From the IMG/VR virus record IMGVR_UViG_3300032287_001775, positions 1 through 29,775 of that record: DNA of 29,775 bases; one strand, 5' to 3'. The notes under the pieces were generated by a model, which saw only the letters and a list, made by a program, of their open reading frames with translations, had not been told where the DNA came from and ran no database searches. Positions 5,531 through 29,775 of the stretch are shown here, piece after piece. The translations under genes were made by a program, and so were the position numbers. Positions within the stretch are counted from its first letter, which is position 1. The number at the start of each line of letters is the position of its first letter. The DNA is from a virus.

Positions 5531-5588
5531 CTATCTAGCGGCATCAGAGCAAGGAAAAGCCCGGACATCCACACACGTGGAGCCGGGC
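5527..5588 (-). promoter_or_regulatory. Hairpin plus conserved leader, copy B
   Basis: On the minus strand GCCCGG/CCGGGC (5588-5583 with 5564-5559) encloses a second stem TCCAC/GTGGA with a 4-nt loop, followed by TTTTCC. The opposite strand also has a T-run (5591-5595), so the stem could terminate in both directions. After the stem come TTGCTCTGA and TAGATAGATGG holding the W-like start codon, aligned without gaps to copy A at 2874-2905. The stem sequences differ between copies while their shape and the leader are kept. Confidence 0.65.
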
Positions 5589-5634
5589 AGTTTTTCCGCC
5601 ACCCGCCCTTTTCGTGTTTGGGTGAGCCTTAAAA

Positions 5635-7413
5635 TTACTCTGGCTTTTGCGGTTCGTCAACCTCTGGTGCAGCAGAAACCATATCTGGCAAGATGCCGAG
5701 AATCTGAGCGGCCAGCACGTTCATCGCTTCAGCATCCCACATGTGGTTTGGTCTGCCTGTAGCGGTCCACCTTAGCCGCGTTTTCTTGCTACGTTTGTCT
5801 ACGGTTGCCCGTTTGCGCTCTGAGTTGAGATGCCTCACATACTCCGGCGGAGCGTCTTGAGGAAACTCCCACACCGGCGAGCCAGTGTTGCGCAAATTTG
5901 CGAGAATGTCTTTGATGGGATCAGACGACCAATAGAAAAAAGTGACAAAGACTCTTTTGCCAGCAGCGTCCCGAGTGGTAGGCGCGACCACGCGATCCGG
6001 GGCAGAGTAATAGCGGCGGATGGGTTTGCCGTCCTGTCCTCTAACCGTAAAGTGATCTTCGGCGCGGCCTACCAAAGCAGTCCATCCAAACTTTGCACAA
6101 GTGTCGTAAATGCGGCCATGAAACGAGTTTCCAGCGTCTAGCAGCGTCCTCTTGTCTGGCACTTTTAGCTTGGTCTGTATTTCTCGAAGTTGATCTACGG
6201 TCAAAATCTTCCCAGCCCACAAAAGCCGAGAATGCCCGTTCTTTAACCAAACGCGCACGATGCCCCAATAATGGTCCTGCTGGCAGTCTACCGTGAATAC
6301 CCTAGCGGCCTCGTCCGGCATCGGTCGCCCGTCTTGCCATTCGTTTACAAAATACTCGGAAGCCTCTAGTTCCAGCGCCGGCAGTTCTTCCTCCTGCTTC
6401 CACGGTTCTGCGAGCCTCTGCATCCTAAAATCCTTGGTCGGTTGCAGCACTCCAAGATGCCGGGCGTCGGAAGCTTGGCACCATTGAATGACAAGGTCGG
6501 CCCAGCGAATCCAGTAGACCGATTGAGCCGAAACGCGCCGAGATCGGTAGCCTTCCACGTGGTCATTGCCCTCCGATCTCCATTCACTGCGCTGAGTCAA
6601 TCCCCGGCGGGCTGCGGTAGTGTCAGGAGTAACGTGCCCGCAGTGCGGACATTCATGCCGGACAGTTTTGACAAGTGCGCCCCAGTTCCATTCGCCGTTC
6701 TCGTTTTTGGCTTCGTCGTATTTGATGTCTACCCAAGCAGGTTTGACCCATTCATCGCACTTCGGGCACCGATGGCACCATTGAAACTCTTCGCCCGATC
6801 TCCACTCCTCGGTTAGTTGATGAGGTTCCTCAAAGCTCTGGCTGGTCAAAAGCGCGTAGCCGTTCCATCGGTCATGGAGCCGTTTTTTGAACTGGGTAAT
6901 GAGGTCGCTGTACTGCCAGCACTCATCCAAAAACAGAACCTGCACGGATTTTTCTTGAGCGTTGCTGGTGTTTGCCCCGCCTAACATTAAGGGCATGTGA
7001 GGAAAGTAAATGCCGTCTTTTTTGACGTGATGCCGGTTGCTCGGCATTAGCCCACGCAGCGGTTCGCACGCCCCGAGCACCGGCTTGAGTCGCGTCTCCA
7101 TCCATTCCGCGCTGGTCGCGTCGGTCTGAGTGATGGAAAGCATCGGCCCAGGCTGTTGAGCCACTGCCCAGCATACTAGAGCCTCTAGTGCCGTGCTCTT
7201 TCCGGCCCCAGTGCAAGCTTGCACAAAAGTCTGGCGACAAGAAGGGTCCGCAAAGTCAGCAAACACAGCATTCCACCAAGGCGCGGTGCTGCGGTCAAAA
7301 TGTGTGCTTCTGGAGCTGTGCGGGAAGCGGACGTTCTGCTCCATCCAGTCCAGCGGGTCGCCGGTGTACGCGAGGCGGATGCCGGTTCGTGAACCATCCA
7401 AAATTGGGTTCAT
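5635..7413 (-). CDS. Terminase large subunit (lambda GpA family)
   Basis: A 592-aa packaging ATPase and nuclease. Walker A is ACTGAGKST at about residues 66-74, Walker B is LFLDE at about 160-164. A zinc cluster follows: CHRCPKC near 213-219 and CPHCGH near 255-260, characteristic of the GpA family. The C-terminal nuclease half begins around VFTVDCQQDHYWG with an acidic residue in the RNase H-like core. It pumps DNA into proheads through the portal and cuts concatemers. Lambda GpA makes staggered cos cuts; whether this one does is unknown. Its ATG overlaps the small subunit TGA (ATGA). A terminator-like module follows. Confidence 0.93.
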   Translation of the reverse strand: MNPILDGSRTGIRLAYTGDPLDWMEQNVRFPHSSRSTHFDRSTAPWWNAVFADFADPSCRQTFVQACTGAGKSTALEALVCWAVAQQPGPMLSITQTDATSAEWMETRLKPVLGACEPLRGLMPSNRHHVKKDGIYFPHMPLMLGGANTSNAQEKSVQVLFLDECWQYSDLITQFKKRLHDRWNGYALLTSQSFEEPHQLTEEWRSGEEFQWCHRCPKCDEWVKPAWVDIKYDEAKNENGEWNWGALVKTVRHECPHCGHVTPDTTAARRGLTQRSEWRSEGNDHVEGYRSRRVSAQSVYWIRWADLVIQWCQASDARHLGVLQPTKDFRMQRLAEPWKQEEELPALELEASEYFVNEWQDGRPMPDEAARVFTVDCQQDHYWGIVRVWLKNGHSRLLWAGKILTVDQLREIQTKLKVPDKRTLLDAGNSFHGRIYDTCAKFGWTALVGRAEDHFTVRGQDGKPIRRYYSAPDRVVAPTTRDAAGKRVFVTFFYWSSDPIKDILANLRNTGSPVWEFPQDAPPEYVRHLNSERKRATVDKRSKKTRLRWTATGRPNHMWDAEAMNVLAAQILGILPDMVSAAPEVDEPQKPE

Positions 7414-8802: not shown

Positions 8803-9128
8803 AGCAATTGTGTCCTCGCCCATGACTCGCGGATTGCCTGCACTCTCGCAGCCTTTTCCGCATTTAGGCTGTGCAATTTGTTTTGCTGGTACTCTTTTGC
8901 GCGCAAAGATTTTTCAGCCCGTAACCCAGCAAAAAATTGATGTCGCACTGCACGTTTATATTCGTGCTTGTTCATCGCCCCAATAGTGTCGCCGGTATCT
9001 TTTGCGATCTTTTTTACAGAGGCGCGCAACTTAATCAAATCGGCCTTTACCCGCTTGATTTCAGGTTGCCCCAGTTTTTCAAGTCTCGCGCCTGTTGCTG
9101 GTCCACGTAATGGACAATCCATGCTCAT
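8799..9128 (-). CDS. Small basic helical early protein
   Basis: A 109-aa protein starting MSMDCPLRGPATG. It is Lys/Arg-rich and predicted helical through KRVKADLIKLRASVKKIAKD and the RAEKSLRAKEYQQNKL segment, so nucleic-acid binding is possible. Its start overlaps the upstream TGA (ATGA at 9128-9125) and its stop overlaps the next start. No family recognised. Confidence 0.65.
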   Translation of the reverse strand: MSMDCPLRGPATGARLEKLGQPEIKRVKADLIKLRASVKKIAKDTGDTIGAMNKHEYKRAVRHQFFAGLRAEKSLRAKEYQQNKLHSLNAEKAARVQAIRESWARTQLL

Positions 9129-9685: not shown

Positions 9686-10345
9686 TTAGTCAAAATCTTC
9701 TGCACTTTGAGCTGCTTTCTGCTCGACAATGATGCGGTCAGTCTCCTCGGCTTGAGCCCAGGCAGTGCGTAGCCATTGCTGATCGCGTTCGGAAAGATGC
9801 GAAATATCTGGATGCTGTTTTTTTGAGCCGCTGTCGCCCGTCAGGGGCGAGCAAGCGGACTCAGTTTCTTCCTTCTCTGTTACTCCCGCTGCCGCTGGCG
9901 GCGGCGCGGAGTAACTGTTCTCTTTCTCTCTAAAGCGTCCAAACTGTGTACTCACGTGCCGTCCATGTGGTGTACTCACGTGCCGTTCATTTGGTGAACT
10001 GCCGCGTCCATGTGGTGTACTGCTAATCGAGGTCAAAAAAAAGGCATTTCGGGTCGCCCGGTGTGCTCCATTTGAGCCGGAAAACTTGCGGATTAAACCC
10101 GCTTTTTCGAGTGCATCGAGTGCCGTTTTGACAGTCCCGCGAGAGCATCCCACGTGCTCTGCCAACTGCTCATATGATGCCGAAAAACGTCTTTTGTGTT
10201 CGGTTGCTGCTGCACTTTGAAAGTGTGTAAGTGCGCAGTAAATGGCGTAAGCGTTGATGCCTACTTTGCCAGCTTCAACGGCAGCTTCTCGGGTCTGCCA
10301 GGCAAAAGGGCCTTCATCTTTTGGGTTTTCTGAACGTGGTTTCAT
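9686..10345 (-). CDS. Replication initiator-like winged-helix protein
   Basis: A 219-aa protein starting MKPRSENPKDEGPF. Residues about 25-90 form a winged-helix DNA-binding domain: a helix around NAYAIYCALTHF, SYEQLAEHVGCSRGTVKTALDALEKAGLIRK as helix-turn-helix and wing, as in phage initiators and helix-turn-helix_36 proteins. A repetitive His/Ser/Arg stretch (about 108-137, with STPHGR twice) is encoded by the iteron-like repeats at 9946-10029. The C-terminal third is acidic and helical. The organisation, DNA-binding initiator, origin repeats within the gene and helicase next door, recalls lambda O and P. Its start overlaps the helicase stop (ATGA). Confidence 0.75.
   Translation of the reverse strand: MKPRSENPKDEGPFAWQTREAAVEAGKVGINAYAIYCALTHFQSAAATEHKRRFSASYEQLAEHVGCSRGTVKTALDALEKAGLIRKFSGSNGAHRATRNAFFLTSISSTPHGRGSSPNERHVSTPHGRHVSTQFGRFREKENSYSAPPPAAAGVTEKEETESACSPLTGDSGSKKQHPDISHLSERDQQWLRTAWAQAEETDRIIVEQKAAQSAEDFD
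9946..10029. repeat. Iteron-like tandem repeats, probable replication origin
   Basis: Four head-to-tail units start at 9946, 9970, 9994 and 10015 (spacing 24, 24, 21). Units 1 and 2 share GTGTACTCACGTGCCGT and units 3 and 4 are shorter variants beginning GTG(A/T)ACTGC. Two carry the palindrome CACGTG. They lie inside the initiator gene, keep its frame and encode its STPHGR repeats. Repeats inside the initiator gene are the lambda O arrangement, so these are the best origin candidate. Confidence 0.6.
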
Positions 10346-11667
10346 TTGCGTTTCTTGTTGTCTTCTGGTGGTTCCGGTTCAGGACACATCTGCCAAATCA
10401 TGCCGTGCTTTTCCGGGTTCGGACTGTGCCTGATAAAGATTCGTGCGCTAGGCTTGCCATCCCAGCTTTGCATTCCAGCCCGCAATCTGCGCTTTGTTGC
10501 GGTCAGTGAGCAGGTCGGCGGTTCGCCTGGTTGCGTCTCTACGCGCTGCAATGTCACGACTTCGCGGGCCCAGTTTGTCAGTGCGCTAGATCCAAACCCA
10601 GCATAGGCCAAATCGGAATCGGTACGTGCAGTACCTTCTCGCGGCTTCGGCAGGTGATGAATGAGCACCAAAAGCACCCCGGTTTTGCTGCTGATTCGGT
10701 TGAGCCCGTTGCAAAACTCTGTCACCACTTTCTGGTCTGAGATGTCGTCGCCCAAATAGCACATTAGCGGGTCGATCCAAGCCACGTCTGGACGATGCCG
10801 CACCACTAACGCTTCAAGCATTCGGAGAAACTCTGAGCCCGAATGCACATTGTCGCGGTAAAAAACTAGCCGCTCGTTGAGTGCTGCCTTTTCTTCCTCG
10901 CCGCAATCAGTTTTCCCGTATTTGCAAATCACGCTTTGCAAAATCTCGGCCTGGTCGCCAATGTCGTTTTCGGCTTGCAAAATTAGACTTTTGAGAGCTT
11001 TGACCGGCTTGATGCCAAAGGTGAGCACGTCGGAAAACGTCCCACTCCCCAGCGCCCACCCGATTGCCAGTTGCATCGTCAGAGAGCTTTTGCCGATTCC
11101 GCTCTGAGCGTTAATAAGCAGCGAGCCTCCTTTGCAGAGCCAGCGGTTGCCTATGAGCGTGTTTGGGTCTGTGTCAGTCTTGTATGTCAGCAGGTCAGCA
11201 AAAGAGGTCTGTTTGACATCTCCAAGCCCCTGCTCGGCACTCGCCACTGTGACGGCGTCACCAAGCCCGGCTACGATGTCCCCAGTTGGTAATCCGTCAC
11301 CAAGTGCCTTTGCTGCGTCCCTGAGTTGCGCCAGTAACTTTCGGCGCCTTGCGGCATCTTGCACCAGTCCGCACCAGCTCGGCAGCGGTTCGAGGCTCGG
11401 CATCCCGGTCGACAGGTCTGAGATAGTCGCAAACGGAATGCCCTGATGCGCTAGTTGTGTCGCTAACGAAAGCGGGTCTAAACTTTGGCCTGCATCTGCT
11501 GCGGCTTGAATCCCCGCAAAGATCGTCGCAAAGCTTGGATTGAAAAAGTGCCCAGCGGTCAGTCCAGATGCGACAACTGCGGGAAATGCGGTGTGAGGTG
11601 CAAAAAGTAGACACCCCAGCACCGCCCGCTCAGCCTGCTCGGCCTGCGGGATGGCTTGTACGCTCAT
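10342..11667 (-). CDS. Replicative helicase (DnaB-N plus RecA-like ATPase)
   Basis: A 441-aa protein starting MSVQAIPQAEQAERAVLGCLL, the classic DnaB N-terminal domain pattern (residues about 7-110). The RecA-like ATPase follows: Walker A AQSGIGKSS at about 187-195, Walker B VAWIDPL at about 295-301, and a sensor-like IHHLPKPREG near 340. The ATPase half resembles the RepA/AAA_25 family more than full DnaB. It should unwind DNA at the origin. No primase domain is visible, so priming is probably by the host. The stop overlaps the initiator start (ATGA), so the two are coupled. Confidence 0.85.
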   Translation of the reverse strand: MSVQAIPQAEQAERAVLGCLLFAPHTAFPAVVASGLTAGHFFNPSFATIFAGIQAAADAGQSLDPLSLATQLAHQGIPFATISDLSTGMPSLEPLPSWCGLVQDAARRRKLLAQLRDAAKALGDGLPTGDIVAGLGDAVTVASAEQGLGDVKQTSFADLLTYKTDTDPNTLIGNRWLCKGGSLLINAQSGIGKSSLTMQLAIGWALGSGTFSDVLTFGIKPVKALKSLILQAENDIGDQAEILQSVICKYGKTDCGEEEKAALNERLVFYRDNVHSGSEFLRMLEALVVRHRPDVAWIDPLMCYLGDDISDQKVVTEFCNGLNRISSKTGVLLVLIHHLPKPREGTARTDSDLAYAGFGSSALTNWAREVVTLQRVETQPGEPPTCSLTATKRRLRAGMQSWDGKPSARIFIRHSPNPEKHGMIWQMCPEPEPPEDNKKRK

Positions 11668-12336: not shown

Positions 12337-13062
12337 TTAGATGGAAAACGCTGCAAAGAATCTTTCTGGAAATGCAACTGCCTGAGTCGCGATGTCGGCC
12401 GGAATATCGAGGTAGGTTTCGTTTTCCTTGATCCATCCCCGTTTAAGTGATCCTGCCGTGACTTTTTCACGCGCCGCGTCTGACTTGTCAGCGAGCAGTC
12501 GCTGCATCGGGTTGATCCGCTCGATCGCCTCGCGAATCGGTTGCGCTGTGGCCTCAATGGCTATTGGTTCCGTCTCGGTCTGCACCTGGACCGGCGCAAA
12601 CTCGGCAACCTCTTCGGGAGCGTAGCACCCAGACAACACGGCTGGGTAGATGCTGCGCACGGCCTCGGAAATGCAGCGAGCCCGGAGCATCTGACGCGGA
12701 AACTTTTTCCACGTGGGATTGCTGCCAAGCCCGGCTCGCTCTGCGTCTTTGGTGGTCCAGGTGACTCTCAACGTCGCTCCCTGCGGATGCGTAAACGTGC
12801 CTGACACAGATTCATGCGTATATTCGTGCCACTCAACACGGCCCCCTGCTTGTTGAAATCGTGCCAGCATGGCCTCGGACTTGAGCGACGGCTTGCCGTT
12901 GATGATGTGGTAATCCCTCGCGGCTTCGGCTGGATGTCGCCCTTCGGCCTGGCATAGCAAGCCCAATGCTAAAGCCTGCTCGGCGGTCTGGATTCCAAAG
13001 AGTTTGGATTTCGCGATGGCCTCGGCCATCAGTTTGGTTTGTTCGAACGGTATTAGTTGCAT
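12337..13062 (-). CDS. recT: RecT-family single-strand annealing protein
   Basis: A 241-aa protein starting MQLIPFEQTKLMAEAIAKS. RecT-family features: an N-terminal helix, the conserved HIINGKPSLKSEAMLARF block (about residues 51-68) followed by GGRVEW, then NPTWKKFPRQMLRARCISEAVR (about 115-136) and CYAPEEVAE. It anneals complementary ssDNA after end resection, with the nuclease, SSB-like protein and resolvase encoded beside it. The C-terminal third (VQTETEPIAIE onwards) is divergent. It overlaps the resolvase stop by 10 nt. Confidence 0.85.
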   Translation of the reverse strand: MQLIPFEQTKLMAEAIAKSKLFGIQTAEQALALGLLCQAEGRHPAEAARDYHIINGKPSLKSEAMLARFQQAGGRVEWHEYTHESVSGTFTHPQGATLRVTWTTKDAERAGLGSNPTWKKFPRQMLRARCISEAVRSIYPAVLSGCYAPEEVAEFAPVQVQTETEPIAIEATAQPIREAIERINPMQRLLADKSDAAREKVTAGSLKRGWIKENETYLDIPADIATQAVAFPERFFAAFSI

Positions 13063-13514
13063 TTGGTTTTCATTTTTAGGCCCGCCTCAAGGATGAGGAG
13101 AGCGTCTGCTGTTTTTAGTGTCACTGACAGTTGTGGATAAAGCGCCTGAGCGCGGCCTTTGAGATGAGCTTTCCAGCGGTTCCCGTGCGTTTTCTTGTCG
13201 CCCAACCCGAGAGCCTGCTGCCACTTCTTAGGAGGCAGATACTCAATCCTGGCACTGTACGCGGCAAGCATGCCCTCAATTCTTCCGTAATTTCGGAACA
13301 TTGTTGCCATGCTGCTGCCGGACATTTTGCCAGCAAACTTGGGCAACTCTTCGAGAAACACGGTTGTGATTCCTTTGCACAAAATCCAAAGTTGCCGCTC
13401 TAGGTCGTGCAAAGTCGCTGGCATTGGCAAAGCATGCACGCTGCCATCGGTGTCAATGTAAGCAATCCCGCCGCCCACACCAGGGTCGATTGCAATGTAG
13501 TTTTGTTCGCTCAT
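13053..13514 (-). CDS. RuvC-like Holliday junction resolvase
   Basis: A 153-aa protein with an RNase H-fold layout: IAIDPGVGGG at the N-terminus (Asp10), VFLEELPK around 52-59 (second acid), a PPKKWQQALGLG segment near 95, and KTADALLILEAG near 135-146 supplying the last acid. This matches phage RuvC-like resolvases, which cut branched DNA before packaging. Only one Asp is visible in the last motif where E. coli RuvC has two. It starts with ATGA overlap on the nuclease gene. Confidence 0.85.
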   Translation of the reverse strand: MSEQNYIAIDPGVGGGIAYIDTDGSVHALPMPATLHDLERQLWILCKGITTVFLEELPKFAGKMSGSSMATMFRNYGRIEGMLAAYSARIEYLPPKKWQQALGLGDKKTHGNRWKAHLKGRAQALYPQLSVTLKTADALLILEAGLKMKTKCN

Positions 13515-14500
13515 TTTGATGCCACAAGTGGAGCCTGCCCGATTTTCCGTTGCACAATCTCATCCGGCAGCACCGCACCGGCTGCACTCCAAAGCGCTTG
13601 AGCCTTTTTGAGGCTCATTGAGCCTTGCGCGAGAATCGCGTCACCCGCACCGATTGCACCGTTGCGCACTGCCTGCGCGATGTGTTCGGCCTCGATGTAC
13701 TCGCTCGCACGCGGCTTTTGCAGCCTCCAGCCAGCCACTTTCTGCCCCGCTTCGAGCAACTCGCGGGCCTTGGTTTTGGCAGCGTCGCGAAAATCATCCA
13801 ACGTCTGACACGCTGCCAGAAACTGCCCGAGTCTGTCAGGGTCGTTTAAAAGCGCCAAAAAGCCCTCGTCCTGCACTGTCGGTGCGAGCCCGGCAACTGT
13901 CACCATTGCGCTGTCCTTGCTGGCAACGCGAGCCGGACATGTCAGCGATTTGGCGCACCAGCCGCAGTAATCGTTTTCGGTCGGTGCTGTTCCAACATTT
14001 GCCAACACTCTGGCGACTAAATCGGCTGCACTTTGGTATGTCCAGCGGTGTGTCACAACCTGCCGTTGATCGCAAAAGAGCAGGTGAGTTGTCCACTCGC
14101 CCACAAAGTGCTCCTGCATGAGGCCCAAAGCGTAGGCTGCCATTTGTGCCTGGTAATCGTAGATTTGGCCTGACTTAAGGTCGATCAGGAACCGGCCTTT
14201 AAGCGCAACGCCGTCAGCGGTGCCTCTATGCTCAATTCCAAAAGTATGAATGCGGCAACGGTCCTCGTCCGTTACCAAATCGTTGACGCCACCGAATTGG
14301 ATGCACTGGTTGATTGCCCACCGAACTGCCTGCGCGTCTTCCTCTAACAGTTGCCAGTCAGGAAACTCTCCGTGCGTCCAGGCGTGCCTGAATGCCGCGT
14401 CGAGCTTGGTTCCGCGCGCTGCTGCCGGACTGGTGCCTGGTGAGCCTTCGTATTGCCCGCAGAGCGCGAGCTTGGGGAGGGATGAGTGTCGGATTTTCAT
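13511..14500 (-). CDS. Cas4/RecB-like PD-(D/E)XK nuclease with Fe-S cysteines
   Basis: A 329-aa protein starting MKIRHSSLPKLALCGQYEG. The nuclease core shows GTADG (Asp96), IDLKSG (Asp107, Lys109) and QAQMAAYALG (Gln117-Tyr123). One Cys near the N-terminus (C14) and a C-x2-C-x5-C set (C179, C182, C188) match the four-cysteine Fe-S layout of Cas4 and AddB nucleases. It is probably an end-resecting exonuclease for the RecT protein. There is no Cas1, Cas2 or CRISPR array, so this is a recombination role. The ATGA overlap with the zinc protein upstream and the resolvase downstream ties the three together. Confidence 0.85.
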   Translation of the reverse strand: MKIRHSSLPKLALCGQYEGSPGTSPAAARGTKLDAAFRHAWTHGEFPDWQLLEEDAQAVRWAINQCIQFGGVNDLVTDEDRCRIHTFGIEHRGTADGVALKGRFLIDLKSGQIYDYQAQMAAYALGLMQEHFVGEWTTHLLFCDQRQVVTHRWTYQSAADLVARVLANVGTAPTENDYCGWCAKSLTCPARVASKDSAMVTVAGLAPTVQDEGFLALLNDPDRLGQFLAACQTLDDFRDAAKTKARELLEAGQKVAGWRLQKPRASEYIEAEHIAQAVRNGAIGAGDAILAQGSMSLKKAQALWSAAGAVLPDEIVQRKIGQAPLVASK

Positions 14501-15377: not shown

Positions 15378-15515
15378 CTAGGCTCCCCACACTTCTGCCA
15401 GAGCTTTTGCTCCGGCGATTCGGGCCGCCTCAAAACTTTTGGCAACTCCGTTGCCTGCCAAGTTTTCCCATACCCATTCAAATCCGTTTACGTGCTTGTA
15501 GATTGTGGTCTTCAT
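15378..15515 (-). CDS. 45-aa early protein
   Basis: Starts MKTTIYKHVNGFEWVWEN and ends KALAEVWGA. It has a beta-hairpin-like aromatic first half and a helical second half (SFEAARIAGAKAL), the size of many phage small modulators. ATG 15515 is favoured by the CAA-rich leader ACCAACGAACAACAATG; an in-frame extension upstream would run through that leader. Function unknown. Confidence 0.5.
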   Translation of the reverse strand: MKTTIYKHVNGFEWVWENLAGNGVAKSFEAARIAGAKALAEVWGA

Positions 15516-21298: not shown

Positions 21299-23671
<2,373 letters not shown>

Positions 23672-23908: not shown

Positions 23909-25336
23909 TCAATTCAGATTTTCGACTCGTATGTTGATGCTCAGGCTACTTGTGAGCACAACCTTTCCGTCTTTGTCTTTGATCTCAATTACAGTAGTTT
24001 CTCCATCCCTAAAGGTTTGCGATGGTGCAAAAATTGTAAACTCTTCTAGCGGTTCTCCTGTCTCAGGGTCAATTTCTGGCGGAGTAGTGGCTGACCAGCC
24101 GAAAGTGTAAATCGTTTCATACTCTGTAGTTATTGCATCTCTCCAATCTTTATTACCTTGAAGGTATCGGCTCCAAGCGTCTCCAAAATCGTACAGTAAA
24201 TAAAAAACCGCCCTTGGTGGGGAATCTAGTGACAATGTCACATCTTGACCTGCGTCCACAGGTGTGCCGTCACCAGACGGTGGTGGAGTAGCGGCAGTTA
24301 AATTTGCTTGTCCAGATGGAGAACTTTCAACAGGCGCACTCAATATTATGTTTGGCCTATTTGCGTAAAAACTTTCAGTCAACGCAATGTAGGGCTGGTC
24401 TTCATCGATGTACTTTGAAGCTAAACCTTCGTTCCTGCGAGCGTAAGTGCCGTCCTTTTTCAGTAGTCTTGTCGGCACACCACTCAATGTGACCCAGTCG
24501 TCGCCGTCAAACATGAGGCCCTGCCCAGCGTACACATAATCTATCGGTAAAACCTTATCTGGCGGAATCTCAGGAGGTGGAGGAATGCCACCGTCATACG
24601 CACGGAGGCTAGTTGTAAATGTAGGTATCATTACCGTGCCCGGCTTTGCCAATACACCATCAACATATCCTCCCTTAGTTAAAACTGGCGAAGTGTTTGG
24701 GATCCAATAAAACGTCCTGTCTGGTTTAGGGTAACGCTTTTGTCTTATTATTCTGACAAGAAAGTTTTCTGGATCATCTGGGTCTATAACAATATTGTTA
24801 GGATATATGTAAATAATATCTCCTTCATACACAATGGCTGGAACATTAACTGTAACAATTCCAGCCGGTAACAATATCGGCGCATCTTTTCCTAAGTCGT
24901 CAGGATGCTTGACAATGTAAACTCTTTTAACTGTTGTGTACTCTCCGTCTACTTCAACCTTGCCCCTAAAGTCAGGAGTCCGCTCATATTTCAGCTCTGG
25001 CTTGTCATTTGGAATCCATTCACCGTAATTTGAAAGCACATTTTTATTTAGAAAAGTTCTTTCAACATAGTTGGGAAATCCCAAATTTGTAAATCCTGAC
25101 TCTGTAATGCCAGAAATAAACGCAGGTCTAACATAATCCTTTGTCGTGTCTGGTAATGGATCACATGTCTGCTGTTTAATAGTAAGCGCAGTCCCTTGAG
25201 TTTGATACTCAGCTTGAAAATTGCCATTAAAAGCGCTGTATATTTCATTTCGCCAGATAAACCCTTCTGTTCCAGCCGCCGAGCCAGTTAGTTTAACAGA
25301 CGCTGAAAAGTTGCTGTTAAAACTTGCAATCGACAT
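23909..25336 (-). CDS. Tail-tip / baseplate structural protein
   Basis: A 475-aa protein starting MSIASFNSNFSASVKLTG. It is beta-rich, with Pro-rich loops (PPPEIPPDK near residue 255) and a C-terminal Ig-like segment ending SLSINIRVENLN. Position after tape measure and before the fibre suggests the tip hub or a spike. I do not recognise lambda J-type or Dit-type signatures. Base composition is notably AT-rich compared with the head genes. Confidence 0.65.
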   Translation of the reverse strand: MSIASFNSNFSASVKLTGSAAGTEGFIWRNEIYSAFNGNFQAEYQTQGTALTIKQQTCDPLPDTTKDYVRPAFISGITESGFTNLGFPNYVERTFLNKNVLSNYGEWIPNDKPELKYERTPDFRGKVEVDGEYTTVKRVYIVKHPDDLGKDAPILLPAGIVTVNVPAIVYEGDIIYIYPNNIVIDPDDPENFLVRIIRQKRYPKPDRTFYWIPNTSPVLTKGGYVDGVLAKPGTVMIPTFTTSLRAYDGGIPPPPEIPPDKVLPIDYVYAGQGLMFDGDDWVTLSGVPTRLLKKDGTYARRNEGLASKYIDEDQPYIALTESFYANRPNIILSAPVESSPSGQANLTAATPPPSGDGTPVDAGQDVTLSLDSPPRAVFYLLYDFGDAWSRYLQGNKDWRDAITTEYETIYTFGWSATTPPEIDPETGEPLEEFTIFAPSQTFRDGETTVIEIKDKDGKVVLTSSLSINIRVENLN

Positions 25337-25337
25337 A

Positions 25338-25883
25338 TCAACTTAAAGAACAAGGACTTGGAAATGGCTGAACACAAATGCTCTTAATGCTATCAATGAC
25401 CTTTGGGTCAGCATCTGGGTCTATTTTTACAACAGCAATCAAATTATACTGAGTCGTTGAAGTGTTGGTTTTTAATTCTGTTTCAACAGAAATTAAAACT
25501 TCATTTACAATAAGCGTGCTTGTGTTAAACACGATTTGAATGTATATGTAGCAAGTTTCCGAAACGTCCAGTTTGAATTTAGGGTCATCGGTAGGAGACA
25601 TGCCAGTAGGCAACATGTTCCAGACTAAGCCCCATGCCACCTGTACCTTCAAATCCTCTCCTACAGAAACATCAGTGACTTTAAACGGGCAAGAAATTTG
25701 AGAACTACCGGCTCCCTGGCCTCCAAAGGTGCCCGAGTTGATGTTTATGCTAGTTCCGCCAATTGAGCGGTTAAAAGTGCCGCCCTTGATGCTGGTGATT
25801 TGATTTGACCGCACCTCATCCATTAGCGCGTTAAACGCATTTGGCGAAATAGGTTGGCCGCGTTGTTGTGGTGGCGGAAACAT
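25338..25883 (-). CDS. Tail-tip protein, 181 aa
   Basis: Starts MFPPPQQRGQPISPNAF with ATG 25883 overlapping the upstream TAA as TAATG; a longer TTG start exists but would overlap further. After a Pro-rich start, NAFNALMDEVRSNQITSIKGG is helical then the rest is beta-rich with a Gly/Ser stretch (SINSGTFGGQGAGSSQ-like). It is probably a fibre or tip subunit. The last residues are PSPCSLS. Function unknown. Confidence 0.6.
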   Translation of the reverse strand: MFPPPQQRGQPISPNAFNALMDEVRSNQITSIKGGTFNRSIGGTSININSGTFGGQGAGSSQISCPFKVTDVSVGEDLKVQVAWGLVWNMLPTGMSPTDDPKFKLDVSETCYIYIQIVFNTSTLIVNEVLISVETELKTNTSTTQYNLIAVVKIDPDADPKVIDSIKSICVQPFPSPCSLS

Positions 25884-26563
25884 TAGTAAAGGATTTCGTT
25901 CCAAGCAGTCCCAGTTGGAGACGACTGGTATTCGTAGGTTGTGCGAAATCTATTGCCTTCTTGCTGCGAACGAACCCCAGACAAAATAAAAGTTGAGCCT
26001 TCTGGAGCGATAAACCCAGCAGGCCAGTCAGCCCACTGATCGATCATTCCAAGCTTGGTCATGTCTGGCGCGCCATCTTCAAGCACAGTGACTCTGGCTG
26101 TGACTCGGCCCACATAGTAACTTTCCTGCCCGGCTTTCCAAAATGTATAAAACACCTTGAAACTAGGGTCATCTTCTTCAGCAGGTTGCCACAGGTTTAA
26201 GGGATTTGAGTCGGTCGCTCCTTTTCCTTTCCCAGCCAAATAGGGGTCTGTTGGGTTGCGCTTGTAAGTAATCCACTGTTTCTTGATTTCGTCCGAAAGC
26301 TCAAAATCTCCGTCTTTGTTAAACTTTGGATGCGTTTCAAGCGGCTCAGTGCCGATATTGCCATCAAAGGCAAATTGCGGTTCTCCTTGCTCAATCAAAA
26401 ACTCTTCGACCAATGTGTAGACGCCATCAGCCTGATCTTGGCGGTAGCTTCTGGCTTCAGGATTTTTTGGAATCTCTCCAGAAAGGCTCTGCTGCGTGAT
26501 CGTCTCCATCACGCACCGATCAATCCCCATCGATTTTTCAAGTCGAACTTCAGTGGCTGGCAT
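25883..26563 (-). CDS. Tail-tip protein, 226 aa
   Basis: Starts MPATEVRLEKSMGIDRC and ends TAWNEILY. It is mixed, with a helical N-terminus (MGIDRCVMETITQQSLSGE), charged loops, then a beta-rich C-terminal half with FYTFWKAGQESYYVGRVTARVTVLED. Position after tape measure is that of distal-tail proteins (Dit-like or lambda M/L). Similarity not established. It is coupled to the next gene. Confidence 0.6.
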   Translation of the reverse strand: MPATEVRLEKSMGIDRCVMETITQQSLSGEIPKNPEARSYRQDQADGVYTLVEEFLIEQGEPQFAFDGNIGTEPLETHPKFNKDGDFELSDEIKKQWITYKRNPTDPYLAGKGKGATDSNPLNLWQPAEEDDPSFKVFYTFWKAGQESYYVGRVTARVTVLEDGAPDMTKLGMIDQWADWPAGFIAPEGSTFILSGVRSQQEGNRFRTTYEYQSSPTGTAWNEILY

Positions 26564-26564
26564 A

Positions 26565-27875
26565 TTAAATGATTCCTAATTGAGGCGTTACACCGCTAAG
26601 ATACGGGTTGTTTTCTGGTTTTGCAGTTTGCAGGAATCGGTCGATGCTGTTGGCGATACGCTGCTGCACTGCCAGGATGTCGCGCTGGACGTTTATGTCT
26701 TGCTCGCCGCCCCACACTGCCCCGCCAAGGGCTCCTACTTTTGCGGCACTGCTCGCGATCATTTGAGGCATCGAGGTCGGCGCAAGTTTTCGCAAAATAT
26801 CCATGCCAGTAGGCGCGGCCCCAGGCGTTGCATATTTTTTGCGTGCTTCTGCGGCATTTGCTTCTTTGGATGCGTTGATTGCGTCCATAGTGGCCTGAAT
26901 TGACTTTTCAAGATTAGTCGTGTCAACAACTAGACCTGATGTTCTTGCCTGAATCTCAGCTTCTTGCATTGCTTTAAATTTTTTTTCATCGGATGAAAAA
27001 TAATTGCGCAAGCCAGCCGCTGAAACTGCCATATTTACTGCCAATTCTTCTGCAAAAAAATTAATGGCATTGGCAAAGGCTAATTTTAACGTGTTGTAAA
27101 TTAAATCACCAGTTGCTCCAAAGTTGTCAAAGTAATTTATCCAAAAAGCAACACCGGCACCAATGCCTTGTCCTATTTTACTAAAATCAAGTTTTGCACT
27201 TTTTTCTAAAACGTCCATGATTTGAGGCACAATTTCAGATGCAATCCCAACAAAGAATCCACGAATTTTGCTACCTGTAAGCCCAAGAATATCGCTGGCT
27301 TTTCCAAAGACTCCGGCATTTTCGAGCAGTAAGGCTGTTTGATTTCCAAGCACTTTACGCACTTCTTCCATGCCACCAGCGGCAAAAACGGAAAGCAGCT
27401 TTGCTCCGCTCTTTCCAAAAATTTCCATCGCCATTGCAGAGCGTTGTGCCGGGTTCTGGATTTTTTCGATTGCCTCCCCGATCTTCATCAACTGCTCATC
27501 AGCGTTAAGCCCTTGGATGTCGGCAATCTGAATTCCCATCATAGAGAATTTAGCCGCAGCTTCTGCACTTCCAGAACCAGCCTCGGCAATAATTCGCTGC
27601 ATTTTGGCAATCACTGGTTGCAATTGGTCAGCCTTCATGCCGTTAAGGTCAAAGGCCATTTGCAGTTCGATTAGCTTGTCAATAGCAACGCCGGTTTGCG
27701 CATTAAGGTCCACCAAGTCATCGCCAAACTGGATGGCATCATAAAATCCTTTAACCGCTATTGTAAGCGCACCAAAAATTGAAGCACCGCCACTCAGCAT
27801 TTGGATAGACGATATTGCCCCTTGAATGCCGCTTTGAAAATTAGACCAATCAAGCCCAAGAGATGCTGTAATCAT
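26565..27875 (-). CDS. Tail tape measure protein
   Basis: A 436-aa protein starting MITASLGLDWSNFQSGIQGAI. It has the hallmark N-terminal helical region (GDDLVDLNAQTGVAIDKLIELQMAF), Ala/Gly-rich hydrophobic segments (around 30-55 and 220-270), and a long helical body with EKIQNPAQRSAMAMEIFGKSG. At roughly 0.15 nm per residue it implies a tail of about 65 nm, short for a siphovirus. It controls tail length and probably helps DNA ejection. It lies after the chaperone pair and an unknown protein, as in lambda. Confidence 0.85.
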   Translation of the reverse strand: MITASLGLDWSNFQSGIQGAISSIQMLSGGASIFGALTIAVKGFYDAIQFGDDLVDLNAQTGVAIDKLIELQMAFDLNGMKADQLQPVIAKMQRIIAEAGSGSAEAAAKFSMMGIQIADIQGLNADEQLMKIGEAIEKIQNPAQRSAMAMEIFGKSGAKLLSVFAAGGMEEVRKVLGNQTALLLENAGVFGKASDILGLTGSKIRGFFVGIASEIVPQIMDVLEKSAKLDFSKIGQGIGAGVAFWINYFDNFGATGDLIYNTLKLAFANAINFFAEELAVNMAVSAAGLRNYFSSDEKKFKAMQEAEIQARTSGLVVDTTNLEKSIQATMDAINASKEANAAEARKKYATPGAAPTGMDILRKLAPTSMPQMIASSAAKVGALGGAVWGGEQDINVQRDILAVQQRIANSIDRFLQTAKPENNPYLSGVTPQLGII

Positions 27876-27876
27876 T

Positions 27877-28644
27877 TTATGGAATACGTTGACTGTTTAC
27901 AAAAGCAGCAGTGCGGCGAGCCATTGCATTAGCCTGCATGGTAAATGCTGTCGCAAGTTTTTGCTGAATATTTGTCGAATCAGAATGGTTAGTGTTGTTT
28001 TGGGCAATAATTTGCATTGCGGTTTGCGTGTCATTTATAATAACACTGCCACCAACTTTTGATCCATGTCGAGTGATCCATTTTGGAATGCCACGAACAT
28101 TAAATCGTGATGCTGCTGGCAACCAGCCGGAAGCTGTCAAGCCTTGTTCTTTTAAGAGTTGTTTATAAACCCATTTTACTGTGCTTTCCCACATTGGAAA
28201 CTTTGGACTGCCAGCAATTCTGCGCCTATTGTTTCTCCTGCTTTTGTACCAAGCCAGAACTTGATCGCGAGGCTGTTCCATAAAAGAACGAATAAACGAT
28301 GGCTGAAATCGTTGATTAAAATAATAAACTAGGCTCCAATCATTTCCGCGCTTCCATTGTTTGGGAACTATGCGAAACGCTCGCGAAAGATCTTTTCGCA
28401 TTGCTTTTTGCCCCTGATTTTTTCCTTTTGCGTAATCAACTCGAATATTTGTTCCGCTTCTTGTAGTTGAAGCGTTTCTGCCACCCATTGGAGGAGTGAC
28501 AGCAAAACAAAACCGAAGCATGCCTTTGAAGTTTTCCATAACTTCATGACGCGCTCCTCTTCGAGAATTACGGATGACTTGCTGAAGTTCTCGCGTAAAC
28601 CTTGCTTGAGCAGCGGAAAAATCCAATCTAATGCGGTCACTCAT
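27877..28644 (-). CDS. Basic tail-region protein, 255 aa
   Basis: Starts MSDRIRLDFSAAQARFTRELQ. It is rich in Arg, Lys and aromatics (QRFQPSFIRSFMEQPRDQVLAWYKSRRNNRRRIAGSP) with a helical C-terminus. It lies between the frameshifted chaperone and the tape measure, where lambda has no gene. Its own ATG overlaps the end of the chaperone frame by 8 nt and follows a GAGGAGGAA run that is also coding. Possibly a tail assembly or capping protein. Not recognised. Confidence 0.65.
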   Translation of the reverse strand: MSDRIRLDFSAAQARFTRELQQVIRNSRRGARHEVMENFKGMLRFCFAVTPPMGGRNASTTRSGTNIRVDYAKGKNQGQKAMRKDLSRAFRIVPKQWKRGNDWSLVYYFNQRFQPSFIRSFMEQPRDQVLAWYKSRRNNRRRIAGSPKFPMWESTVKWVYKQLLKEQGLTASGWLPAASRFNVRGIPKWITRHGSKVGGSVIINDTQTAMQIIAQNNTNHSDSTNIQQKLATAFTMQANAMARRTAAFVNSQRIP

Positions 28645-29632: not shown

Positions 29633-29775
29633 TTAGCTTGCGTTTTTGTAAACGGTGCCGGTTGCGGACCAGCCACGGAAATCGTCGTTTTTGGAGTCGA
29701 GAGTTTCGTTTGTCCAAATTCCCTTTCCAGAAATGCCAGTAATTCCAGAAACTGTTGCGCCTGGATTAAAGGGAC
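29633..29775 (-). CDS. Tail-tube-like protein B, C-terminal part
   Basis: This is the end of the gene that starts at 295. The TAA is at 29635-29633 and the last residues are VYKNAS. All of it except 29633-29652 duplicates bases 1-123. The next gene starts at 29621, 11 nt downstream of the stop, so the tail operon continues without a break. Confidence 0.8.
   Translation of the reverse strand, partial: PFNPGATVSGITGISGKGIWTNETLDSKNDDFRGWSATGTVYKNAS
29653..29775. repeat. Terminal overlap, copy 2 (same as 1-123)
   Basis: This is the second exact copy of bases 1-123. It carries the C-terminal part of the tail-tube-like gene whose N-terminal part starts at base 295. It should be counted once when the genome is closed. 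Confidence 0.95.

Follow-up and report, generated by a model that had tools for sequence, protein, structure and literature searches.

A probable lambda-like replication origin within the initiator gene of an uncultivated tailed phage

In the IMG/VR record IMGVR_UViG_3300032287_001775, analysed at its full length of 29,775 bases and hereafter called the window, a replication origin very probably lies inside the coding sequence of the initiator itself, in the manner of lambda ori, with the initiator binding a set of dyadic iterons. We assign this reading a probability of roughly 0.88, a figure that also covers the view that the record belongs to an uncultivated tailed phage. The sequence-only reading had already likened these repeats to the iterons inside lambda gene O, and this proves to be the best explanation, because the gene belongs to O-like families, the recognition helix covaries with the iterons, synonymous sites in the iterons are frozen, and the spacing and order of the elements match those of lambda. 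As judged from the sequences, support extends to the dyads, their register, the helix covariation, the synonymous constraint, and the covariation within two adjacent hairpins. The features are as follows.

10342..11667, minus strand: replicative helicase gene, with a DnaB N-terminal domain (PF00772, E=4e-11) and AAA_25 (RecA-like; PF13481, E=2e-18); DnaB-like phrog_19
9686..10345, minus strand: initiator gene, 219 aa, with a winged-helix N-terminal domain, predicted disordered linker, and C-terminal helix
10118..10144, minus strand: recognition-helix specificity codons (aa 68-76, SRGTVKTAL), which covary with the half-site
10006..10020, no strand: iteron dyad 1, GTCCA-TGTGG-TGTAC on the plus strand; 4/5 symmetric arm pairs, register kept in relatives
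9985..9999, no strand: iteron dyad 2, GTTCA-TTTGG-TGAAC on the plus strand; perfect dyad, 5/5 arm pairs
9976..9984, no strand: linker between dyads 2 and 3, containing CACGTG; sequence independent of initiator type
9961..9975, no strand: iteron dyad 3, GTCCA-TGTGG-TGTAC on the plus strand
9952..9960, no strand: linker between dyads 3 and 4, containing CACGTG; sequence independent of initiator type
9937..9951, no strand: iteron dyad 4, GTCCA-AACTG-TGTAC on the plus strand
9916..9936, minus strand: purine-rich, moderately A+T-rich tract adjoining dyad 4, candidate unwinding element
9879..9915, minus strand: hairpin H1, 9 common pairs in 44 sequences
9824..9863, minus strand: hairpin H2, bulged, from covariation and its resemblance to the H1 core
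9695..9790, minus strand: C-terminal helix codons (aa 186-217), AlphaFold2 helix with pLDDT ~81-85 over most of its length

An exact 123-base direct terminal repeat (1-123 = 29653-29775) indicates that the record is probably complete, as a circular or terminally redundant genome. A RecT-like annealing protein, a Holliday-junction-resolvase-like protein, and an exonuclease-like protein are encoded in a row (12337-14500) upstream of the replication genes. Farther along, a glycosyltransferase group 1 gene (PF00534; 20147-21295) lies amid structural genes, a 692-aa protein (21299-23377) is rich in collagen-like repeats of the GATGATG type, and the tape-measure and neighbouring genes (24001-28500) have a GC content of ~0.40-0.49 versus ~0.55 elsewhere. 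Against 50,697 records of annotated phages, the initiator found no match at either the DNA or the tblastn/protein level, and the helicase found two weak ones, both in Arthrobacter phages. A host search of genome contigs returned one weak match, and Rfam returned none.

The best Pfam match of the initiator is HTH_36 (PF13730, E=1.8e-7), and its gene overlaps that of the helicase by 4 bases, which together bear out the earlier description of the repeats as lying in a winged-helix gene coupled to a DnaB-type helicase. Its family matches are to phrog_270 (replication initiation, E=8e-13), phrog_678 (O-like, E=4e-9), and phrog_391 (E=1e-7), and its profile matches also include Crp and MarR regulators; no RepA_N domain appears among the 25 Pfam families listed as matches. 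The AlphaFold2 model has a confident winged helix at about residues 19-90, with confidence declining towards residue 107, and pLDDT values below 50 for residues 108-177, the segment that encodes the iterons and hairpins and is thus a predicted disordered linker. At the other end of this linker, the modelled C-terminal helix is a candidate contact for the helicase or replisome. A Foldseek search placed 4pql, 4pt7, and 5kbj among the top matches, two of these three being labelled as an initiator or Rep-DNA complex, with none reaching an E-value of 0.001. As for the helicase, it gave weak matches to primase/helicase families via its helicase domain; no primase was found among the searched open reading frames of the window. 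Nor was a lambda P-like gene identified, the gene adjoining the initiator being the one for the DnaB-N/AAA_25 helicase.

That the repeats are real is confirmed both by Tandem Repeats Finder (9946-10021, period 24, 3.3 copies, score 96) and by an excess of the pattern GTNCANNNNNTGNAC, which has five matches in the window against 0.46 expected, a count reached by none of 100 shuffles. Four of the five matches make up the array. The fifth, a perfect GTCCA-N5-TGGAC dyad at 9101-9115 near the start of a 109-aa open reading frame, was rejected as an iteron; it looks unrelated, since the sole homologue found, in L062, which has an initiator of another type, has this sequence unchanged. In the window, the repeat unit is a dyad of two five-base arms about a five-base centre, GTNCA-N5-TGNAC. 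As a dyad centre, YCACA or its complement is frequent. Taking the dyad GTCCA-N5-TGTAC as the natural unit sets the array at 9937-10020. The interval proposed earlier, 9946-10029, is off in register, as it begins within the first dyad met along the window, and the proposed GTGTACTCACGTGCC core is not the unit, as it spans the right arm of one dyad and a linker.

All four dyads lie inside the initiator reading frame, and their symmetry exceeds what the protein sequence would impose. Together they have 17 of 20 symmetric arm pairs, whereas synonymous recodings give 7.2 (P=0.0002); elsewhere in the gene the score is at most 12. In 13/13 representatives the dyads likewise beat their synonymous recodings (P 0.0002-0.0012), with recoding destroying the dyads. 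Among initiators of type A, synonymous differences per same-amino-acid codon amount to 0.026 in the dyads versus 0.426 in the winged helix (about 16-fold), with intermediate values for the tract plus H1 (0.188) and for H2 (0.243); types B and C give a similar pattern.

For comparison, scans of IMG/VR yielded 28 initiator and 54 helicase loci, with further ones brought in by alignments, and from these metagenomic contigs we assembled 50 distinct initiator genes, 44 of them close (the window's own included) and six distant. Throughout the close family, every helix type has the array at the same offsets, array indels aside. Copy number does vary, with three dyads in L055 and five in L014 and in the L041 group, as might be expected of a functionless tandem repeat made by slippage, but four dyads with fixed offsets and strongly diverged sequences, their covariation with the helix, and the 16-fold synonymous constraint refute this explanation. 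Some distant relatives have sites 21-23 bp apart. Here, L133 has perfect GGCTC-N5-GAGCC dyads spaced 23/23/22 bp, and L077 has GTGAA-N5-TTCAC dyads spaced 21/21/22 bp, a spacing resembled by those of L073 and L075. The array of L074 is interrupted, and the half-site of L076 was read from the sequence, because the automatic one was a base out of register. Among 1064 open reading frames of distant helicase relatives, gathered with L133 as the seed, four chains of at least three dyads were found, none of them convincing. In L273, many TGTCAGTT-type (TGTCAG) repeats come after the gene of a distant DnaB-like helicase (5570-5820) and possibly represent a different type of origin, although no initiator gene could be identified there.

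It had also been suggested that CACGTG, present in two repeat units, might be the binding core. Instead, this hexamer belongs to the linkers, and in relatives it changes (GACGTG, CTCGTG, CGCGTG, etc.) without following the initiator type. When relatives with array indels are set aside, most types share the linker nnnnCGTGA regardless of their half-site, though the type D linker differs; being independent of the half-site, CACGTG is therefore not a specificity element. A similar outcome awaits the dual protein and DNA role that was proposed for the STPHGR peptide. The repeats do encode this peptide in frame in the window, and the main-family spacing of 21/24/24 is a multiple of three, which would suit selection for a repetitive linker peptide. 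Yet the corresponding peptide is wholly different between types (NAPQAR, KPSQGH, NATQSY, KDCESL), the synonymous sites are frozen, the dyads exceed their synonymous recodings, and the linker is predicted to be disordered. Moreover, dyads 22 or 23 bp apart occur in some distant relatives, so that spacing is not always a multiple of three, and it is the DNA that is repeated rather than the peptide; in L133, perfect dyads fall in different reading frames, which makes STPHGR a by-product. As the main explanation, a peptide repeat is refuted, and this segment of the gene is one where DNA function overrides protein sequence.

The iteron half-site and the recognition helix change together across relatives in lock-and-key fashion, as their sequences attest. 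Among the 44 close relatives, helix (aa 67-78) and half-site distances correlate with a Mantel r of 0.87, the permutations leaving shared ancestry in, and the partial correlation is 0.84 when the intervening 17 aa are controlled for. Conversely, the intervening segment gives -0.07 against the half-site once the helix is accounted for, and the distances between helicases show no relation to those between half-sites (r=0.05, not significant). As the helix codons and iterons are only ~100 bp apart, physical linkage does contribute to the association, though the partial tests disfavour linkage alone. No pair shares a helix and has distant iterons, and in phages whose helicases are nearly identical, such as L081 and L036 (97%), the helix and iterons both differ, as expected of a swapped module. 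The arms are of the ACCC kind in L081 and of the CGCC kind in L037. At the level of single residues, Arg or Lys at the equivalent of CRP residue 185 (aa 74 in the window's initiator) goes with C as the innermost arm base (eight types), and other residues go with A (four types). For this post hoc rule, Fisher's test gives P=0.002, a value to be read with the types not being fully independent and the position having been picked after looking; a search for new types on which to test it, among the same 1064 open reading frames, gave none.

The same evidence for binding would also fit operators, i.e., dyads through which the initiator autoregulates the replication genes, with replication starting elsewhere. 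Winged-helix proteins are often repressors, and the Crp and MarR profile matches agree with this. We nonetheless consider operators very improbable, given that the sites are in the middle of the gene and not at its start, that the array, tract, and hairpin follow in the order seen in lambda, and that the gene falls in replication-initiation families. A regulatory side effect of the dyads may accompany the origin. GC skew, put forward as a check on the origin, was uninformative: the detrended extrema lie at 15382 and 29540, none here, though nearly all likely genes are on one strand. AT skew gave no useful extremum.

Beyond dyad 4, the first 20 bases of the tract are 60% AT and 75% purine on the minus strand, with the gene as a whole at 48% AT; the lambda equivalent is 78% AT and 75% purine. 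There follow two covarying hairpins, absent from the sequence-only reading and found here, which are present in 50/50 sequences. In H1, two sequence classes share nine pairs, and these are Watson-Crick in 396/396 cells across 44 sequences, with changes on both sides at seven of the nine and no G-U pair in any cell. H2 is paired in 91% of cells, with both-side changes at eight of 16 pairs. Covariation in the hairpins scores 0.433, whereas shuffles give 0.160 and sliding gives no more than 0.077. A second purine-rich stretch, kept in relatives, occupies 9864-9878 (minus strand) between the two hairpins. With a covariance model, the module was found once in each close relative searched (an extra match in L042, E 1.8, is at chance level). 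By rough E-values, the model also matches at the right place in L073, L074, L075, L077, and L133 (E 0.001-0.009) and weakly in L076 (E 0.14). In lambda, its match just after the iterons is not significant (E 4.6).

The reverse complement of H2 aligns better to the H1 core in 34 of 44 sequences, and a mirrored bulge pattern is seen in 37/50, though it is absent from the window's own predicted fold; a same design on opposite strands is, for this reason, suggestive only. Counts of G-T versus A-C pairs do not decide the strand of H2. Since both hairpins fold stably on the mRNA strand, they could have an RNA-level role instead, as mRNA structure or in transcription attenuation, independent of the origin. 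We regard this as unlikely, for the lack of any G-U pair in 396 H1 cells is unusual for an RNA helix, and lambda has a hairpin in the same place, adjoining its unwinding region; such a role would in any case be no obstacle to reading the iterons as part of an origin. The perfect pairing in H1 could also stem from template-switch correction of palindromes.

Assembled into a mechanism, the winged-helix N-terminal domain would bind the four dyadic iterons encoded in its own disordered linker, probably as one dimer per dyad, a binding to which the helix covariation lends indirect support, and would thereby destabilise the purine-rich tract next to them. The DnaB-N/AAA_25 helicase that the phage itself encodes in the overlapping gene upstream would then be recruited, probably through the initiator C-terminal helix, and loaded at this tract. 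H1 and H2, situated past the tract, would work within the region so exposed, perhaps as sites for priming or loading. The fullest version, in which three coevolving parts lie in one gene, with helix-matched, swappable iterons and a melting tract joined to opposite-strand hairpins of one design that serve priming or helicase loading at each fork, and with a phage helicase needing no separate loader, is one that we offer tentatively, as a possibility rather than an expectation.

An in-gene origin of initiator and iterons is a kind already known from lambda, pSK41, and SPP1. What is new is the large series of matched initiators and iterons, together with its twin-hairpin extension. About a dozen natural specificities are found on a nearly constant backbone, some with 97% identical helicases, so that the initiator recognition code and changes in origin specificity become directly testable; likewise, the role of the twin hairpins, conserved here within an in-gene origin, is open to testing. 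Differences from the known systems are the adjacent helicase of the phage's own, no identified P gene, the many specificity types, and the two hairpins.

Foremost among the systems compared is lambda, whose iterons are inverted repeats in gene O, bound by O dimers beside an AT-rich region (PMC5043065, PMC6022878). Lambda ori (J02459) likewise has four imperfect inverted-repeat iterons within the initiator gene, and with the same code these are located at O offsets 348/368/392/415 (spacing 20/24/23), compared with 325/346/370/394 (spacing 21/24/24) here. In both, a purine- or A-rich tract and then an inverted repeat come after the iterons. In contrast, the half-sites differ, the AT bias is weaker here, and one strong hairpin is seen in lambda versus two here. 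Moreover, the P gene adjoins O in lambda, whereas here no P was identified and the phage has its own DnaB-N/AAA_25 helicase, for which reason we describe the origin as working like lambda ori and do not class it as a lambdoid O/P module. Matched O specificities among lambdoid phages are named by Furth and Yates (1978), as cited in PMC6022878.

In the RepA_N plasmid pSK41, the origin is central in rep, with four Rep boxes and a dispensable encoded linker, and Rep has a winged-helix N-domain and a C-domain that recruits a replication protein (PMC5703833). The winged-helix N-domain and the origin inside rep are shared with our initiator, although the pSK41 C-domain binds host DnaG, and the likely partner here is the adjacent phage helicase. 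Another RepA_N plasmid protein, from pPR9, has its N-domain in PF13730, also the best Pfam match here, but this alone is not proof of recent common ancestry, and similarity to the RepA_N family is at the fold level only. For the RepA_N/ori modules of the Vibrio PLE satellites, the DNA-binding domain and iterons covary and swap as modules, with cognate pairing experimentally shown (PMC8263062); their origin is a noncoding one with two described groups, as opposed to an in-gene origin with many types here. With SPP1, where the initiator binds direct repeats in its own gene 38 at oriL, beside an AT-rich unwinding element (PMC6316719), the likeness is in the sites lying within the initiator's gene, and the differences are that SPP1 loads its helicase with a separate protein, gp39, and has oriR as a second origin. 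Lastly, the nearest model for H1 and H2 is the ssiA/ssiB pair of RSF1010 oriV, with one hairpin priming site per strand (PMC4434180), even though RSF1010 has its own primase, RepB', and none was found in the open reading frames searched here.
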